Shown here: in pieces, positions 3,235-63,107 of the stretch | How the letters are laid out: each line of letters opens with the position of its first letter | Position numbering within the stretch: position 1 is the first letter of the stretch | DNA from: Aliidiomarina haloalkalitolerans | GTDB lineage: Bacteria > Pseudomonadota > Gammaproteobacteria > Enterobacterales > Alteromonadaceae | DNA: 64,000 nt | Direction of reading: 5' to 3' | Assembly: GCF_003987315.1 (NCBI RefSeq) | Contig: NZ_PIPI01000005.1 | Coordinates: 62,001-126,000, forward strand | Translations under genes and position numbers: made by a program | Notes under the pieces: generated by a model | Database searches by the model: none | Told to the model about the DNA's origin: nothing | Seen by the model: only the letters and a program-made list of their open reading frames with translations

Positions 3235-4596
3235 ATGGGCGCGAAACGTTTACAACAGTATGAGACAGTATCGGTATTAGGTTTTGGCCTAACCGGTGTT
3301 TCGTGTGCGCGTTTCCTTCTCAGCCAAGGCATCCGCCCAGTCTTGCTCGACACACGCCAGAAGCCGCCGGGCTTAGAGCAAGCCCCGGAGTTAGTCGACT
3401 ACTGCGAGAGTCATTTCGGGCCGTTACAGCTTGAGCATTTACTGCAAAGCGACATTGTGATTGTCAGCCCAGGCATTGATTGCCGCGACGGCGTAATTGC
3501 GATGGCTGCTGACGCCGGTGTCGAAATGATATCCGATGTCGAACTGTTTGCTTGGTTTGCGACCAAACCAATGATTGGCATTACCGGTTCAAACGGCAAA
3601 TCAACGGTCACTGAACTCTGTGGTCACATTTTACGCAACGCTGGCATGCAGCCAATGCTAGTTGGCAATATCGGTACCCCAGTATTGGACGCCTTGTTAC
3701 CAACAGCGCCTGAGCACGACTGCTATGTGATTGAATTGTCTAGCTTCCAACTCGAATTAATCGAAAACCTTGAATTGGCGGCCGCGACGATTCTGAATGT
3801 CAGCTCCGATCATCTTGACCGCTACGATGACGAACGCGCTTATGCGCGGGCGAAACAACGGATTTATGCGCACGCGTCGACCTGCGTTTGGAATCGCGAC
3901 GACGAAGCAACGCGGCCACTGCATGCACCACGTAACAAACATTTAGTCAGTTTTGGTCAAAGCGACGTCACCAAAGGCTTTGGTTTAACCCGTGTCGGCC
4001 AAGAGTTTTGGTTGACTTATGACAACCAAAAAATGGTGGCTTGCAACGACTTACCACTCGCTGGCGTGCACAATTGGTTGAATATTCAAGCCGCTCTCGC
4101 TTTAGTACAAGCACTGGGTATTGCGACCGTTGAAGCCTTGAGTGCTTTGGCAGGTTACCGCGCGTTGCCCCATCGTTGCGAGTATGTTGGTGACTATAAC
4201 GGCGTGCAATGGATTGACGACTCGAAAGCGACTAATCCCGGGGCAGCAATTGCGGCCATTGCGGGTTTCCGTCCGGCTACTCAGGGTCAGCTTATTTTGA
4301 TTATGGGCGGCGACGCCAAAGGTGCCGACCTAGAAGTATTAGCACCGGTATTAGCAGAACAAGTTGATGTATTGATTACGCTTGGTCGCGATGGTGACAA
4401 AATTGCGGCATTGAAGGCAGGTGCGCGGCCTGTGCAAAGCCTCAATGAAGCAGTTGCTTATGCGGCGCAGCAGGCGAGTGAAGGCAGCGTGGTGTTATTG
4501 TCGCCAGCTTGTGCAAGTCTCGACATGTTTAGTAACTACAAAGAGCGTGGCGCGAAGTTCCGAGCCGCGGTGGAGGAGTGGTATGCGAGCCACTGA
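3235..4596 (+). CDS. murD: UDP-MurNAc-L-alanine:D-glutamate ligase MurD
   Basis: MurD adds D-glutamate to UDP-MurNAc-L-Ala in the cytoplasm. The ATG at 3235 follows an AGGGA site and gives 453 residues, close to the usual length. Visible are the N-terminal Rossmann-type motif (GFGLTGVS), the ATP loop GITGSNGKSTV, the Mur ligase motifs NVSSDHLDR and GVHNWLN, and the C-terminal DDSKATNPGA and SPACASLDMFSNYKERG motifs. The last 14 bases overlap the ftsW start. It is an ordinary family member in its expected place. Confidence 0.97.
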   Translation: MGAKRLQQYETVSVLGFGLTGVSCARFLLSQGIRPVLLDTRQKPPGLEQAPELVDYCESHFGPLQLEHLLQSDIVIVSPGIDCRDGVIAMAADAGVEMISDVELFAWFATKPMIGITGSNGKSTVTELCGHILRNAGMQPMLVGNIGTPVLDALLPTAPEHDCYVIELSSFQLELIENLELAAATILNVSSDHLDRYDDERAYARAKQRIYAHASTCVWNRDDEATRPLHAPRNKHLVSFGQSDVTKGFGLTRVGQEFWLTYDNQKMVACNDLPLAGVHNWLNIQAALALVQALGIATVEALSALAGYRALPHRCEYVGDYNGVQWIDDSKATNPGAAIAAIAGFRPATQGQLILIMGGDAKGADLEVLAPVLAEQVDVLITLGRDGDKIAALKAGARPVQSLNEAVAYAAQQASEGSVVLLSPACASLDMFSNYKERGAKFRAAVEEWYASH

Positions 4597-5839
4597 ACCA
4601 CAACTCGAACTCGAGATTAGCCCACAACAACCGTGGCGACAACGGTTGAGCACATTCTTGAATGGCTCAACCATGCAGTTTTACGACCGTCACCTATTGT
4701 GGATTGCTCTGCTGTTGATGGGGCTTGGCTTCATTATGGTGGCGTCTGCTTCGATCCCGGTGGGCGAACGTTTAACCGGAAATCCATTTTATTTTGTCGC
4801 CCGCCATGCGGTTTACTTGTTTATCGGTTCGGCTGCGGCAGTGATCGTGATGATGATTCCGGTGGCTAAATGGCAAGCTTACAGCGGCATGTTGTGTGTG
4901 CTGGCCATTGGTATGTTGTTGTTAGTTTTGGTGATTGGCACCACGGTCAACGGTGCTACACGGTGGATTCGCATCGGCCCGATGACCTTGCAGGTGGCTG
5001 AATTTGCCAAACTGTTCTTTGTCATTTTCATGGCGAGCTACTTAGACCGGCGCTACGACGAACTGCGTCGCAACTGGAAAGGTTTTATTAAAGCTTTGAT
5101 TGTCATGGGGGTCATGGCGATTTTACTGTTGAAGCAGCCCGACATGGGTTCGGTGATTGTTCTGGGCGTCACGGCGTTAGGGATGCTCTGGGTTGCAGGT
5201 GCACGCTTGGTGCAGTTTTTCTCGGTAGCGCTGACCTTGGTCACCGTGTTTATTTTGCTGATTATTTTTGAGCCGTATCGGATGGCGCGGGTGACCTCGT
5301 TTATGAACCCGTGGGAAGACCCGTTTAATACCGGTTATCAGTTGACCCAGTCACTGATGGCCTTTGGCCGCGGCGATTGGTTAGGGCAAGGACTTGGCAA
5401 CAGCTTGCAGAAGCTGCAGTACTTACCTGAAGCGCATACCGACTTTATTTTGTCAGTCATCGGCGAAGAGCTTGGTTTCTTAGGTGTGGCGGTCACCATT
5501 GTGTTGGTATTCTTGCTGGTGCTGAAAGCGGTATTTTTAGGCCAGCGAGCGTTGCGCCAAAAACGTCCGTTCTCCGGTTACTTGGCGCAAGGAATTGGCA
5601 TTTGGTTTGCCTTTCAAGCAGCCGTTAACATCGGCGCTGCGTCAGGCATGCTGCCAACGAAGGGCTTGACCTTGCCACTGGTCAGCTACGGTGGCAGTAG
5701 TTTACTGATTAGCTTGGTCGCCATGGCTTTGTTGCTGCGGATTGATTACGAAGTGCGTACGGGCTATCGCCTCCTGCGTTCAGAAGGCGAGAAGCGGGTG
5801 CATAAAGGTCACCGTGCTGGTGCCGGGGAGGCTGCATGA
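4583..5839 (+). CDS. ftsW: SEDS-family peptidoglycan glycosyltransferase / division protein FtsW
   Basis: FtsW is the septal SEDS glycosyltransferase that works with FtsI at the divisome. The frame is open upstream to 4421, but the ATG at 4583 (MRATEPQ) is the likely start: it follows GGAGG and overlaps murD by only 14 bases, giving 418 residues. After a cytoplasmic N-terminal tail of about 45 residues come roughly ten transmembrane segments. SEDS features include NGATRWI, the catalytic-loop region with KQPDMGS, the FIL(S/F)VIGEE(L/F)G motif and the C-terminal NIGAASGMLPTKGLTLP motif. It overlaps murG by 4 bases. Confidence 0.96.
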   Translation: MRATEPQLELEISPQQPWRQRLSTFLNGSTMQFYDRHLLWIALLLMGLGFIMVASASIPVGERLTGNPFYFVARHAVYLFIGSAAAVIVMMIPVAKWQAYSGMLCVLAIGMLLLVLVIGTTVNGATRWIRIGPMTLQVAEFAKLFFVIFMASYLDRRYDELRRNWKGFIKALIVMGVMAILLLKQPDMGSVIVLGVTALGMLWVAGARLVQFFSVALTLVTVFILLIIFEPYRMARVTSFMNPWEDPFNTGYQLTQSLMAFGRGDWLGQGLGNSLQKLQYLPEAHTDFILSVIGEELGFLGVAVTIVLVFLLVLKAVFLGQRALRQKRPFSGYLAQGIGIWFAFQAAVNIGAASGMLPTKGLTLPLVSYGGSSLLISLVAMALLLRIDYEVRTGYRLLRSEGEKRVHKGHRAGAGEAA

Positions 5840-6951
5840 GTCGTGTACTGATAGCAGCAGGTGGAACTGGTGGGCACGTTTTTCCAGCGTTGGCAGTGGC
5901 TGAACGATTACGCGCGGACGGTCACGAAGTGCTTTGGTTGGGTACCGAAACGCGCATTGAATCGCGCGTGGTGCCGCAAGCTGGTTTCGAGTTTATTGGC
6001 ATGGCGCAAGCGGGATTGCGCGGTGGTCGTTTATTAACGAAATTAGCGGCGCCGGTGCGTTTAACGCGGTCGGTACTGCAAGCACGGAAAATTATTCGGC
6101 AACGGAACATTGATTTAGTACTTGGCTTTGGCGGTTATACCGCAGGTCCAGCGGGTGTTGCCGCATGGAGTAATGGCACGCCTTTGGTGATTCACGAGCA
6201 AAATGCGGTTCCGGGTCTCACCAATAAACTGTTACATAAGATTGCCCGGCGAACCTTACTCGGTTTTGCCGAGGCAGAAAGTGAGCTTAGGGGAGCTCTT
6301 GTGGTTGGAAATCCGGTGCGGGCTGAAATTCAGGCGTTAGCGGAAACTCGCAAAGAACCTCATGAAGGACTACGGGTGTTGGTGGTTGGTGGCAGCTTGG
6401 GGGCAGCCCACCTCAACCAAACCGTGCCGGCGGCAATTACCGACTGGCAAGGTGGGGGCCTTGCTCTGCGTCATCAAGTCGGTAAAGGCCGTGTTGCCGA
6501 GGTTCAAAGCCTTTATAACAATAAGCCAGCAAACGTGCAGGTGGACGTGAGTGAATTTATTGAAGACATGGCAGCTGCGTACGCATGGGCCGACGTGGTC
6601 ATCGGTCGTGCCGGCGCACTCACAATTGCTGAATTAGCCTGCGCCGGAGTTCCATCAATTTTAGTGCCGTACCCGCATGCGGTCGACGACCATCAAGCGA
6701 AAAATGCGCAAGTTTTGGTCGCTGTTGGTGCGGCAGTGATGGTACGTCAGAATGAATTTTCACCAGCTTGGTTAAGTGCGGAATTAAAACTGTTGAGTAA
6801 TCAAGCAGACAGACTATCAGGTATGGCGAGCGCAGCCCGAAATAGCGCACAATTGCACGCAACCGATAACATCGTGGCGGTGTGTAATGAGTTTTTAGAG
6901 GTTACACCAAAGAGCCCGAAAGCAGTAAAAGCGGAGCAAAAAAATGACTAA
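5836..6951 (+). CDS. murG: Lipid II synthase (UDP-GlcNAc transferase) MurG
   Basis: MurG transfers GlcNAc from UDP-GlcNAc to lipid I on the inner face of the cytoplasmic membrane, making lipid II. The ATG at 5836 overlaps the ftsW stop (ATGA), and the product has 371 residues. The N-terminal [10 protein letters not shown] loop, [22 protein letters not shown] and, in the C-terminal domain, GGSLGA and the donor-binding [11 protein letters not shown] motif all mark the GT28 family. The reading frame ends with a charged tail and overlaps murC by 8 bases. Confidence 0.97.
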
Positions 6952-58902: not shown

Positions 58903-60228
58903 ATGTCTGAACCTCAGACTACTCAGACCACAGCAGCCACCGAAAACACCATCCCGTTTCGCGATGCATTGCGAATTTGGTGGAAAATCGGGCTATTGAG
59001 CTTTGGCGGACCGGCCGGGCAAATCGCCCTCATGCATCGGCTGATTGTCGAAGAAAAGCAGTGGTTGAGTGAAGCGCGCTTTCTGCATGCTTTGAATTAC
59101 TGCATGCTTTTGCCGGGGCCAGAGGCGCAGCAATTGGCAACCTACGTCGGTTGGCTACTGCATGGTGTGAAAGGCGGCCTTGTCGCTGGTTTACTGTTTA
59201 TCTTGCCCGGTGCAGTCATGATCTTGGGCCTGTCGTGGGCGTATGTCTTGCTTGGCGACGTTGGTGCGGTTGAAGGTCTCTTGTTCGGCTTAAAAGCAGC
59301 GGTACTTGCCATTGTCGCCCAAGCCATGCTGAGGCTGTCGCAAAAGGCGCTTAAACATGGCGTTGCGGTTGCGCTTGCCGTTGCGGGCTTTCTTGCGTTG
59401 TTTGTTTTCTCTTTGCCCTTCCCACTCGTGGTTATCGGCGCCGGTGTGATTGGCTGGTTTCTGGCACGGCACTGGGACTCGCAAGCACCCGCCGCAGCGG
59501 ATATTGATGTGGTTGTGCGTCCCGGAACAAAACGGGCAGCAATTGTTGCTGCAGCGTTATGGCTAGGCACACTGGTTGCTTTGTTACTACTGTTTGGTGA
59601 CGATTCGGTCTGGACGCAAGTCGCGTTATTCTTTTCGAAACTTGCGGTGGTGACCTTCGGCGGTGCTTATGCCGTGCTCGCGTATGTTGCTCAGCAGGCG
59701 GTAGAAAACTACGGCTGGTTGAATCCGGGGGAAATGCTCGACGGTTTAGGCTTGGCGGAAACCACGCCAGGCCCATTGATTTTGATCACCCAATTTGTCG
59801 GCTTTCTCGCAGGTTTTCGCGACGCCACGGGCATGCACCCCTTACTTGGGGCAACACTGGCGGCATTGCTGACCACGTGGGTGACATTTTTGCCCTGCTT
59901 TGTGTGGATCTTTGCGGGCGCGCCTTATGTTGAAAAACTTCGTGGGCAACCACGCTTAAGTGCTGCACTTGGTGCGATTACCGCAGCCGTGGTCGGGGTG
60001 ATTGCCAACCTCGCATTATGGTTTGCATTAAACTATTTATTCGCCGAACAACTGACCTTTAGCGGCTTCGGTATGCAGGTCTTGTTACCCGATCTGCGCA
60101 GTTTTGACATGTATGCCATGATCTTAACAGCCGCCGCATTATTGTTAATGTTTGGTCGGAAAGTCGGGCTGTTCCCGTTATTGGGCATGATGTCGGTAGC
60201 GGGGATTGGCGTTCAGTATTTCTTTTAA
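58903..60228 (+). CDS. chrA: ChrA-type chromate transporter, two-domain
   Basis: A 441-residue inner-membrane protein of the CHR family, long-chain form with two homologous halves. The first has WWKIGLLSFGGPAGQIALM and LPGPEAQQLATYVGW; the second FFSKLAVVTFGGAYAVLAYV and TTPGPLILITQFVGF, the paired FGG and PGP motifs of the family. It is predicted to export chromate, though some homologues carry other anions. A TATAAT lies at 58868-58873, but no good -35 was seen. It may share a transcript with the following genes, though a 96-base gap intervenes. Confidence 0.9.
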   Translation: MSEPQTTQTTAATENTIPFRDALRIWWKIGLLSFGGPAGQIALMHRLIVEEKQWLSEARFLHALNYCMLLPGPEAQQLATYVGWLLHGVKGGLVAGLLFILPGAVMILGLSWAYVLLGDVGAVEGLLFGLKAAVLAIVAQAMLRLSQKALKHGVAVALAVAGFLALFVFSLPFPLVVIGAGVIGWFLARHWDSQAPAAADIDVVVRPGTKRAAIVAAALWLGTLVALLLLFGDDSVWTQVALFFSKLAVVTFGGAYAVLAYVAQQAVENYGWLNPGEMLDGLGLAETTPGPLILITQFVGFLAGFRDATGMHPLLGATLAALLTTWVTFLPCFVWIFAGAPYVEKLRGQPRLSAALGAITAAVVGVIANLALWFALNYLFAEQLTFSGFGMQVLLPDLRSFDMYAMILTAAALLLMFGRKVGLFPLLGMMSVAGIGVQYFF

Positions 60229-60324
60229 CACCAAGATTTGGCAAAACTTTGCGTTAGGTCATTGCACCGGCGGCCAGCTCCCGCTACTATTTTTTAATCG
60301 CAGTGAACACAGTGAAGTTATCGT

Positions 60325-61833
60325 TTGGCACATTTAAAGGACTTTTATCACGCACTCATTCACGCTCTGAAAAACCTGATTCCGATTATTGCGGTCGTTT
60401 TGGTTTTTCAGGCGTTCGTCTTACGTACTGTTCCTGACAACAGCGTCAGCATGGCCATTGGTATTGGCATTGTGGCCATTGGTGTGGCGCTTTTCTTACA
60501 AGGCCTCGAACTAAGTATTTTTCCGGTCGGCAAAAGCTTATCTAATCAGTTTGCTCGTAAAGGCTCGGTGCCCATTCTTCTTGCGTTTGGTTTTGCGCTT
60601 GGATTCTCAGCGGTTGTCGCAGAGCCAGCTCTCATTGCCGTGGCGCAACAAGCACAAGACATTAGCGGTGGTCGCATTGACGCACTGATTTTGCGTTTAA
60701 TTGTCGCCACGTCGGTTGGCTTAGTGGTTGCGCTTGGGGTCTTTCGAACCATTTTTGGTTATCCGTTACAGTGGTTCATGATTATTGGCTACATTTTGGT
60801 TGTAATTGTGACCTATTTTGCGCCAGAAGAAATTGTTGGTTTAGCCTATGATTCTGGTGGCGTAACAACCAATATTGTTACCGTGCCATTAATTGCCGCG
60901 CTCGGGATTGGTCTTGCGTCGTCGATTCGGGGGCGCAATCCCCTCATTGACGGCTTTGGCTTAGTTGCGTTAGCCGTTATGGTGCCGATGATCTCCGTGC
61001 AAGTTTACGGCATTATTGTGTTCAGTGGCGCCGAGCCAGATACCACAGCGGACATGGTGATGAGCGCAGACACCCAAGTTGCAACGGGGTTCCTTGCTGC
61101 GCTCATGGACCTGCTCGAAATGTTCCGTGATGTGTTGCCCATTATTATCACCATTGTGTTCTTCCAATATCTAATTCTGAAACGCCCACTGGCGAACCCA
61201 CGACGCGTGTTGTTAGGCTTTTTGTTGGTGATTTTTGGTTTATATGCCTTTGTTGTTGGTTTGAAACTTGGCCTGTTTCCGATTGGCACGGCCATGGCTG
61301 AGCAATTGATCGAGCGCGATAGCTTTGTCTTTATCTATTTATTCGCCTTTGCTATTGGCTTCGCAACCACCATGGCGGAGCCCGCTTTGATTGCAGTTGG
61401 CCAGCAAGCGGAAGAAGCTGCGGACGGTAAATTAAACGGCAACGTGATTCGAATTTTGGTGGCGATAGGTGTTGCGATAGGCATTACCATTGGTGTCCAT
61501 CGAATTATTAGCGGTGGCTCGATGCACTACTATGTCATGGGTGGCTATGTCATTGTGATTGCGCTGACGGTTTTTGCACCGAAATACATTATTGCTTTGG
61601 CGTACGATTTAGGTGGTGTCACCACCTCGGAAGTCACAGTGCCGCTAGTTACCGCTCTCGGCATTGGTTTAGCCACCCACATTGAAGGTCGTAATGTTCT
61701 GATTGACGGTTTTGGTTTAATAGCATTTGCATCGATTTTCCCCATTGTTACGGTAATGGGCTATGCAATTATTGCGCAAGCAGTCACGGCTTGGCGAGAG
61801 CGAGCTGAGGCAGCAGAAACAGAGGGGTCTTAG
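60325..61833 (+). CDS. DUF1538 membrane protein, tandem-duplicated putative transporter
   Basis: A 502-residue polytopic protein of the DUF1538 family, function not established. It is a two-fold repeat of about 250 residues: AEPALIAV occurs at about residues 98 and 351, and the block AYDxGGVTTxxVTVPL ... GRNxLIDGFGL occurs once in each half. Each half has about six hydrophobic segments. The start is a TTG at 60325, because the frame has a stop at 60313-60315 and no ATG or GTG lies between. Two small soluble proteins (P-II-like and CBS-pair) follow closely and look like its sensors. A transport role is inferred. Confidence 0.82.
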   Translation: MAHLKDFYHALIHALKNLIPIIAVVLVFQAFVLRTVPDNSVSMAIGIGIVAIGVALFLQGLELSIFPVGKSLSNQFARKGSVPILLAFGFALGFSAVVAEPALIAVAQQAQDISGGRIDALILRLIVATSVGLVVALGVFRTIFGYPLQWFMIIGYILVVIVTYFAPEEIVGLAYDSGGVTTNIVTVPLIAALGIGLASSIRGRNPLIDGFGLVALAVMVPMISVQVYGIIVFSGAEPDTTADMVMSADTQVATGFLAALMDLLEMFRDVLPIIITIVFFQYLILKRPLANPRRVLLGFLLVIFGLYAFVVGLKLGLFPIGTAMAEQLIERDSFVFIYLFAFAIGFATTMAEPALIAVGQQAEEAADGKLNGNVIRILVAIGVAIGITIGVHRIISGGSMHYYVMGGYVIVIALTVFAPKYIIALAYDLGGVTTSEVTVPLVTALGIGLATHIEGRNVLIDGFGLIAFASIFPIVTVMGYAIIAQAVTAWRERAEAAETEGS

Positions 61834-61834
61834 C

Positions 61835-62200
61835 ATGAAGTTTGCAGCATTGGTGGCAATTGTGCCAGAAGAACTTGAGCAGGAATCGATTGATGCCGCG
61901 CGTGAACAAGGCGCTGGCGGTATGACGGTGATGTCGGGGCGTGGAATTAGTAACACAGCGAAGAAATCGTTTTTTGGCATGAGTTATGATGGTAGCCAGA
62001 AAGTCTTACTGATGGTGCTTGAAAAAGGTCTGTCGCTGCACGTTATGAAAGCGATTCAAAAAGTGATTATGCCAGACGAGCACGATTCTCAAGGCATGGT
62101 ATTTACCGTGCCGTTAGAGCACCTTGGCGGCATTGATATGTCACAGTTGGAGAAGTTTGAACAACATTTAGCTGAACAGTCAGTGAAAGAAACTTTGTAA
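61835..62200 (+). CDS. P-II-like signalling protein, atypical
   Basis: A 121-residue protein with P-II-type features: N-terminal MKFAALVAIV strand, GMTVMSGRG before the T-loop region, and YDGSQKVLLMVLEKG after it, with a Tyr at residue 51. However the B-loop (TGxxGDGK in GlnB/GlnK) is replaced by a PDEHDSQGM segment at 80-88, so ordinary ATP/ADP binding is doubtful. The C-terminal strand FTVPLEHLGGID follows. The ATG at 61835 follows AGAGGGG, one base after the DUF1538 stop. It probably senses an unknown ligand and controls the transporter; that is inference. Confidence 0.82.
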   Translation: MKFAALVAIVPEELEQESIDAAREQGAGGMTVMSGRGISNTAKKSFFGMSYDGSQKVLLMVLEKGLSLHVMKAIQKVIMPDEHDSQGMVFTVPLEHLGGIDMSQLEKFEQHLAEQSVKETL

Positions 62201-62229
62201 CCGGTTCAAGGTAAAGCAGGAGCACAGTC

Positions 62230-62616
62230 ATGCAAGTCAAAGACGTGATGATTAAAGACGTAGTAACCATTTCGCCGTTTGCGAAGCTTCGCGAGGCGTT
62301 GAGTTTATTAAAAAGTAAAAACATCAAGTCATTGGTGGTTGAGAAACAAACCGATAGCGATGCCTATGGCTTGATTACATACACCAATATTTTGAAAACG
62401 GTGATTGCTGAAGACGGCGACATCGATTTACTCAATGTTTACGACATTTGCGCAAAACCGGCGTTAGCCGTGGGTGCGAGCTTGTCCTTAAAGCAGTGTG
62501 CTGCGATGATGGTGCAACAGCACGTGAAGCGCTTAGTGGTGCTAAAGGATAATGAACTTGAAGGCTTTGTGACCATGGATGACATCATGGGCGAGCTATT
62601 GAAAAAGGTAGACTAA
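62230..62616 (+). CDS. Stand-alone CBS-pair protein
   Basis: A 128-residue protein made of two CBS motifs (VKDVMIKDVVTISPFAKLREALSLL ... LITYTNIL and VYDICAKPALAVGASLSLKQCAAMM ... GFVTMDDIM), which together bind adenine nucleotides in many proteins. It lies 29 bases after the P-II-like gene and its stop overlaps the next start (TAATG). Soluble and without a catalytic domain, it probably acts as a second regulatory subunit of the DUF1538 transporter or of its expression. Confidence 0.9.
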   Translation: MQVKDVMIKDVVTISPFAKLREALSLLKSKNIKSLVVEKQTDSDAYGLITYTNILKTVIAEDGDIDLLNVYDICAKPALAVGASLSLKQCAAMMVQQHVKRLVVLKDNELEGFVTMDDIMGELLKKVD

Positions 62617-63107
62617 TGAGTCGTTTGTATTTTTTCCATGGACTGGAAAGTGGCCCCCATGGGCAGAAATATCATTTACTGAAAAATGAGTTTCCGGAAT
62701 TAGAATCGCCAGATTTTCAAGGCATGGATTTGGCGCAACGCCTTGCCAAAGCCGAAGAGTTAACACGTGATCAACGCGGCTTAGTGCTGGTCGGCTCATC
62801 CTTTGGTGGTTTGTTAGCGGCGCGTTTGTATTGCCTTTACCCGGAACGTATTAAAGCGCTGGTGTTGCTAGCGCCAGCGGTGCATACCGAAGAGGGTGAC
62901 CGCGTGACAGAATTACCGTCGCAGCAGCGCGTACGGGTGATTCACGGTATGGCCGACGAAGTGGTGCCGTACACCAAAGTTGTCGCCTTTTGTAAGCGCT
63001 TTGGCGTCCCACTGATTACGGTTGACGACGAGCATCGATTAGCCAGTGAAACAGCTCAACAAACCATCCTTTCAGCTGTTCAAGAAGTGTACAATGCGCG
63101 CTTTTAG
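62616..63107 (+). CDS. yqiA: YqiA-like alpha/beta hydrolase esterase
   Basis: A 163-residue short alpha/beta hydrolase. The nucleophile elbow is GSSFGG (Ser of VLVGSSFGGLLA), the oxyanion motif is FFHGLESGPHGQK, the Asp lies in IHGMADEVVPY and the His in DDEHRLASE. It resembles E. coli YqiA, a carboxylesterase of uncertain substrate. It overlaps the CBS gene by one base (TAATG), so it is cotranslated with the DUF1538 set, perhaps by chance. Confidence 0.85.
   Translation: MSRLYFFHGLESGPHGQKYHLLKNEFPELESPDFQGMDLAQRLAKAEELTRDQRGLVLVGSSFGGLLAARLYCLYPERIKALVLLAPAVHTEEGDRVTELPSQQRVRVIHGMADEVVPYTKVVAFCKRFGVPLITVDDEHRLASETAQQTILSAVQEVYNARF

Follow-up and report, generated by a model that had tools for sequence, protein, structure and literature searches.

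A fused DUF1538 membrane protein of the UmpAB family is linked to a P-II-like protein, and often to a CBS-pair protein, in a putative regulated cation/proton antiporter system

Gene content of the locus

A three-gene unit lies near one end of the 64,000-nucleotide stretch of Aliidiomarina haloalkalitolerans DNA analysed here (assembly GCF_003987315.1, contig NZ_PIPI01000005.1, positions 62,001 to 126,000 of the forward strand; hereafter the window), and encodes a predicted cation/proton antiporter built of two DUF1538 stretches, a P-II-like protein and a protein with a pair of CBS motifs. Positions below are those of the window.

60325-61833, + strand: fused UmpA-UmpB-type membrane protein (DUF1538 twice), predicted cation/H+ antiporter (Pfam, NCBIfam, invariant residues, structure model, loop charges)
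61835-62200, + strand: P-II-like regulator, 121 amino acids, genetically linked to the transporter (Pfam, co-occurrence, residue tests)
62230-62616, + strand: CBS-pair protein, 128 amino acids, frequent third partner (Pfam, locus survey, PDB match)

The DUF1538 gene starts with TTG and has 502 codons, and a single base separates its stop, ending at 61833, from the ATG of the P-II gene at 61835, the start favoured by homologues over the upstream ATG at 61763 in the list of open reading frames. Another 29 bases lie between the P-II gene and the start of the CBS gene at 62230. These coordinates agree with the spacing given in the original prediction, which had been made from the letters of the window alone, and the tandem duplication that it described in the membrane protein was likewise confirmed, with AEPALIAV in both halves, VTTNIVTVPL in one and VTTSEVTVPL in the other.

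Linkage of the P-II-like gene to DUF1538

When species genomes in GTDB were scanned with aligned fused DUF1538 proteins as the query, at least 589 confirmed stretches were obtained, the best 80 of which are the named loci (L numbers) used here, a list that leans towards relatives of the query, whereas the whole-genome samples described below are free of that lean; 20 further stretches, chosen partly by P-II place, were left out of the adjacency counts. The P-II gene adjoins DUF1538 in 76 of the 80 named loci; the remaining four (L066, L090, L114, L131) break off at a contig edge 2-84 bases past DUF1538. A CBS gene is present in 64 of the 75 loci with enough sequence and missing from 11, comprising nine natural fusions together with L102 and L108, which rules out a rule that P-II is always followed by CBS. 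P-II-bearing loci occur in Gamma-, Alpha- and Betaproteobacteria, Campylobacterota, Actinomycetota (Arthrobacter, Nesterenkonia), Planctomycetota (Scalindua), Desulfobacterota, Bacteroidota and Nitrospinota, so that, with phylum names inferred from record titles, the linkage spans about seven phyla. Gene order is changed to P-II, CBS, transporter in L051, L099 and L130, and the partners stay together.

Co-occurrence in whole genomes gave the same picture. In a class sample of 274 genomes, 90 carried DUF1538 and 89 the P-II subfamily, with 87 carrying both, three DUF1538 only, two P-II only and 182 neither; the subfamily was thus found in 87/90 genomes with DUF1538 and 2/184 without it (Fisher p 4e-65). 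Among the 80 of these 90 genomes whose gene places were printed, DUF1538 and P-II lay within 2.5 kb of each other in 76 and on different contigs in the other four, where the fetched stretches show the genes close to the ends of contigs. Each of the three DUF1538-only genomes (L150, L151, L152) has a divergent P-II beside DUF1538. The two P-II-only genomes have a P-II-CBS pair, at a contig edge in L153 and without a scored DUF1538 match in L154, where the upstream frame ends ...AFAGLFPMMTVMG, resembling the C-terminal region of the transporter. A phylum sample of 299 genomes contained 112 with both, four with DUF1538 only, 14 with P-II only and 169 with neither, placing the subfamily in 112/116 DUF1538 genomes vs 14/183 without. 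Divergence of the transporter and of the P-II protein was also correlated (r 0.86 over the 40 loci present in both alignments A5 and A4; highest of 2000 permutations 0.28), a value to which shared ancestry contributes, since genome relatedness was not removed.

Adjacency and co-occurrence in the class and phylum samples rule out a chance neighbourhood, and the accidental unit that the original prediction had named as the outcome that would undo it was not what the neighbourhood survey found, with P-II nearly always adjacent and CBS frequent. The proposal that the three genes form one unit stands strongly for transporter and P-II, which are adjacent, sometimes fused and matched in divergence, and in a reduced form for CBS, a frequent extra that is dispensable.

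Several arrangements departed from this pattern. A divergent DUF1538 type (L045, L046, L047, L049, L050) is followed by P-II, and the stretches yielded no CBS gene. Tandem arrays in Nitrincola (L097 3496-8390; L129 3254-8234) read P-II, umpA, umpB, P-II, CBS, fused umpAB, P-II, CBS, the fused umpAB of L097 being in pieces.

Natural fusions

One open reading frame of 638-677 codons encodes DUF1538-DUF1538-P-II in nine of the 80 named loci (L078, L080, L082, L086, L088, L089, L094, L095, L096), all from Campylobacterota by title. The one fusion that was run against Pfam, that of L088, scored over the cut-off for both families (DUF1538 448 bits, P-II 29.2 bits). For none of the nine fusions was a CBS gene found at a distance of up to 1.5 kb.

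Proteins of ~390 residues with two to three P-II-like repeats follow the divergent DUF1538 gene in L150 (6159-7310) and L152 (6087-7262). The middle repeat was supported in both, the third in L150, and the first in L152 by Pfam, and the family profile did not support the first repeat of L150 or the third repeat of L152. These proteins are possibly, by their sequence, a P-II trimer in a single chain.

Family, substrate and structure of the transporter

The two DUF1538 stretches of the window transporter score 445 bits in Pfam (cut-off 22.6), and its halves match the NCBIfam models for UmpA (NF041627, 445.8 bits of the 490 set as equivalog cut-off) and UmpB (NF041628, 410.1 of 500). By these scores the protein is a relative within the family and not a certified UmpAB equivalog. 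UmpAB, a DUF1538 pair from Halomonas zhaodongensis, was described in 2017 as a Na+(Li+,K+)/H+ antiporter: according to the excerpts available of that paper (PMC5484666), umpA and umpB together allow E. coli lacking three Na+/H+ antiporters to tolerate 0.4 M NaCl, everted vesicles carrying both exchange Na+, Li+ and K+ for H+ with an optimum at pH 9, and the active subclone consists of umpA and umpB with their own promoters. The description of the window protein as a transporter of unknown substrate is therefore outdated at the level of the family. UmpAB is of the same Pfam family and differs from the window protein in being a split pair where the latter is one fused chain. Since umpAB alone is active in E. 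coli, P-II and CBS are dispensable for transport and hence probably regulatory.

In a structure model of the window transporter (mean predicted local distance difference test score, pLDDT, 90.8; predicted template-modelling score, pTM, 0.90), the same helix pattern is repeated in both halves. E100 and E352 sit in helix breaks, D176 and D428 lie a few residues before the second helix breaks, and none of the four residues varies in either of two alignments, of 18 and 51 sequences. Loop charges suggest an opposite orientation of the two halves, a pattern that is clear in half 1 and weak in half 2. The linker joining the two halves has an acidic composition (mean 0.8 Lys plus Arg, 4.7 Asp plus Glu) and the C-terminus a basic one (3.1 Lys plus Arg). 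By the positive-inside rule, the C-terminus is probably cytoplasmic, and the P-II domain of the fusions would therefore be cytoplasmic too.

Searches with the whole chain, the halves not being folded alone, gave no clear relative of known fold by Foldseek (best E 0.016, template-modelling score at most 0.22) or by VIA (best Z 5.1 over 163 residues at a root-mean-square deviation of 9.4, with one of 998 chains at Z of at least 5), and a PDB sequence search returned no match up to E 10. At the level of a predicted model, this outcome points to the lack of a clear solved relative and does not amount to a new fold.

The P-II-like protein

Characterised P-II proteins are ligand sensors. The window protein matches the Pfam P-II family at 28.3 bits (cut-off 25), and a profile of 12 relatives, the window P-II included, matches it at E 1e-43; its best PDB sequence match (positions 61835-62197), the P-II chain 9p1x_H, is not significant at E 0.51. 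The P-II domain of the fused homologue L082 aligned with AMP-bound SbtB at Z 12.3 (root-mean-square deviation 1.9 over 83 residues), with GlnK, GlnZ and CPII within Z 1 of that match, and is thus assigned to the P-II fold with its nearest branch not told apart. SbtB also came first in Foldseek with this domain, at E 0.0055, with no match below 0.001.

An alignment (A4) of the window protein with 62 of the 73 P-II references printed, 63 rows in all, was compared at four GlnB residues located in the GlnB of the same genome and taken by us as marker residues. None of Tyr51, Lys90, Arg101 and Arg103 was kept in any row, the window included, and a stretch of ~5 residues after the T-loop is absent compared to that GlnB. 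An ordinary GlnB or GlnK duplicate is ruled out by the absence of these residues (0/63 rows) and by the separate GlnB in the genome.

The CBS protein and the ligand question

The two CBS stretches of the third protein score 77.4 bits in Pfam, over the cut-off, and its best PDB sequence match is the CBS-CP12 protein 5nmu (E 6.8e-18). Only matches with E below 1e-20 were kept in the CBS alignment, which has 67 rows including the window. No match to diadenylate cyclase (PF02457) was found in the genome of the host, which is 99% complete, with a profile that matches 11 of 14 controls; c-di-AMP is therefore not expected and was rejected as the ligand in this host. For the P-II protein an adenine nucleotide is our guess, which we hold tentatively, and the gating by two nucleotide- or anion-sensing subunits put forward in the original prediction is plausible by analogy.

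Proposed mechanism and alternatives

We consider it rather probable that the three genes encode an antiporter regulated by a docked, ligand-bound P-II protein, with the CBS protein as a second nucleotide reader. The double-DUF1538 protein, which combines UmpA and UmpB in a single chain and whose halves are probably antiparallel, would exchange cytoplasmic Na+ or K+ for external H+, and the invariant Glu and Asp near the helix breaks of each homologous half are candidate ion-site residues. The P-II-like protein, presumably a trimer, would dock on the cytoplasmic face of the transporter beside its C-terminus, and would turn the transporter down or up depending on the small ligand that it binds, for which an adenine nucleotide is the most likely choice. 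The CBS-pair protein would add an optional second nucleotide reading in many systems, not all. Inhibition is a guess at the sign of control, made because the P-II-transporter cases in the excerpts available of a review (PMC10710835) are inhibitory or likely so: the partners AmtB, Amt1, NrtABCD, UrtABCDE and SbtA are blocked, inhibited or likely so there, and no antiporter is among them. The name UmpA is absent from the text of this review.

Several observations weigh against this regulated-antiporter reading. The window protein falls under both the UmpA and the UmpB equivalog cut-off, antiport was measured only for the split Halomonas pair, and some hosts (Arthrobacter, Accumulibacter, Dechloromonas) are no salt specialists by name. 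The nucleotide ligand is a guess because the GlnB marker residues are not kept, and at the CBS1 site the window has Asn, shared by 26/67 rows, with Asp in 27/67. The specificity of the P-II profile A1 is partly by construction, since the profile was built from P-IIs beside DUF1538. In the phylum sample, 14 of the 126 genomes positive for the P-II subfamily lack DUF1538, and the genes next to copies that lie apart from DUF1538 differ from case to case.

An alternative that we regard as unlikely, yet as the strongest of three, is that the true substrate is some other solute whose transport is coupled to that of cations or protons, with the antiport in E. coli a side activity and P-II reporting carbon, nitrogen or energy supply. 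This would fit the nutrients (ammonium, nitrate, urea, bicarbonate) carried by the P-II partners in the excerpts of PMC8352866 and PMC10710835, and dicarboxylate and glutamate transporters are among the best fold matches of the transporter, none of them significant. The exchange of Na+, Li+ and K+ for H+, the pH 9 optimum and the salt tolerance reported in the excerpts for UmpAB argue for cations instead, as do P-II variants beside genes for CPA2-type cation/H+ antiporters (L164 by Pfam, L153 by similarity) and hosts many of which, though not all, are halophile, alkaliphile or marine by name.

That P-II and CBS have a structural or assembly role, as subunits without which the antiporter would not reach full size, rather than acting as ligand-dependent switches, would account for the near-obligate linkage and the natural fusion. 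We nevertheless find it improbable, given the sensor role of characterised P-II proteins, the antiport obtained from umpA and umpB alone in E. coli vesicles, and the absence of CBS from the 11 testable loci and from the surroundings of the five divergent DUF1538 proteins, where none was found. It is very improbable that the targets of P-II and CBS lie elsewhere, for instance in gene expression or in metabolism, and that the two only share a transcript with the transporter: several targets are possible for P-II proteins in the excerpts of PMC10710835 and copies of the subfamily exist away from DUF1538, but nine covalent fusions, linkage across phyla and loci that keep the neighbours together in a changed gene order all stand against it.

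If the regulated-antiporter reading is true, salt and pH homeostasis come under the direct influence of energy or metabolic state through P-II control of a cation/proton antiporter, with CBS where present, and small P-II and CBS proteins that form a widespread group gain a function. A dedicated P-II sensor, usually with CBS, beside or fused to the antiporter in many bacteria suggests switching by metabolic state, and the natural fusions make the model directly testable with a single protein. More doubtful is the wider generalisation that DUF1538 antiporters form a distinct architecture with a standard P-II-like partner, fused in one lineage and possibly a single-chain multi-P-II protein in another, by which energy state gates Na+/K+ and pH homeostasis in many phyla with CBS as second input; we rate this as possible.

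Relation to known systems

By analogy, the unit is best read as a counterpart of SbtA-SbtB in which the transporter is a cation/proton antiporter. According to the excerpts available of PMC8352866, SbtA-SbtB likewise has a PII-like protein in one operon with a secondary transporter, and the SbtA trimer is bound by an AMP-carrying SbtB trimer whose T-loop enters the inter-domain cleft. SbtB is also first in fold to the P-II domain of the fused homologue, tied with GlnK and CPII. SbtA-SbtB differs in its Pfam family, in being a Na+/bicarbonate symporter where the window unit is a cation/proton antiporter by homology, and in lacking the CBS protein added here; the window P-II gene lies beside DUF1538 and not beside sbtA, the neighbour expected for SbtB. 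In AmtB-GlnK, as in the unit, a P-II protein is associated with a membrane transporter that is its presumed target; the difference is that the window P-II group lacks the four GlnB residues and has a shorter T-loop region. In MpfA/CorB, MgtE and an osmolyte ABC transporter, as covered in the excerpts of PMC10710835, a CBS pair serves as the cytoplasmic nucleotide reader of a transporter, as proposed here. The window CBS protein differs from these in being a separate small protein paired with P-II. The osmolyte ABC transporter with a CBS pair is presumably OpuA.

The terms P-II, PII and CBS have no occurrence in the UmpAB paper (PMC5484666). Literature naming DUF1538, in a search that covered sources other than subscription papers and preprints, made no mention of P-II or CBS, nor did cable-bacteria literature naming UmpAB, and in broader searches no title or abstract start among the matches listed describes a pairing of P-II or CBS with DUF1538. 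P-II control is known for uptake of ammonium, nitrate, urea and bicarbonate in the excerpts of PMC10710835. P-II-controlled transporters as such are thus already known, and what appears new is a cation/proton antiporter and a CBS protein as partners. The earlier view of an undescribed system accordingly holds, in the literature searched, for the P-II/CBS partnership and fails for the transporter, which is described as UmpAB.

P-II proteins of the subfamily away from DUF1538

Copies of the P-II subfamily elsewhere rule out an exclusive link to DUF1538. From the phylum sample, 20 P-II places not beside DUF1538 in the printed rows were fetched, and genes were listed for 11; gene names around these copies were assigned by eye unless Pfam is cited. 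One place (L187) has a DUF1538 piece beside P-II after all, and the protein of L186 resembles ordinary GlnB. By eye, neighbours of the paralogues are SH3-like genes and/or argB (e.g. L170, L184, L185) or mutS (L179, L180), rather than a transporter.

In L164, a P-II variant (4033-4377) is immediately followed by a gene for a CPA2-type cation/H+ antiporter (4439-6412; Na_H_Exchanger and TrkA_N by Pfam), and L153 (2527-5311) has the order P-II, CBS, CPA2-like gene, the last by similarity. In L129, L097 and L054, a P-II variant is near a gene or gene piece similar to the L164 antiporter, on the opposite strand. Judging from these sequences, P-II proteins may also be partners of other cation antiporters. 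L048 (3451-5786) has a pair of tandem P-II-like genes that converge on a gene for a BCCT osmolyte transporter, in a stretch with no DUF1538 match.

Neighbouring genes and minor features

The unit is flanked upstream by a chromate transporter gene (58903-60228) and downstream by an alpha/beta hydrolase gene (62616-63107), the latter overlapping the CBS stop by 1 base. No phmmer match (E up to 1e-5) to either was found in the 80 named loci, and both are therefore placed outside the conserved unit and were rejected as members of it. One further feature was recorded between the chromate transporter gene and the unit:

60269-60295, + strand: weak terminator-like hairpin with a T-run (pattern match only)

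Promoters and terminators in the scan were not above shuffles, with fewer terminator-like sites than in shuffled sequence, and a search for phage families gave no PHROG match. DUF1538 is patchy in the family of the window's own organism, being found in two of the eight family genomes listed, which hints at horizontal transfer or loss.

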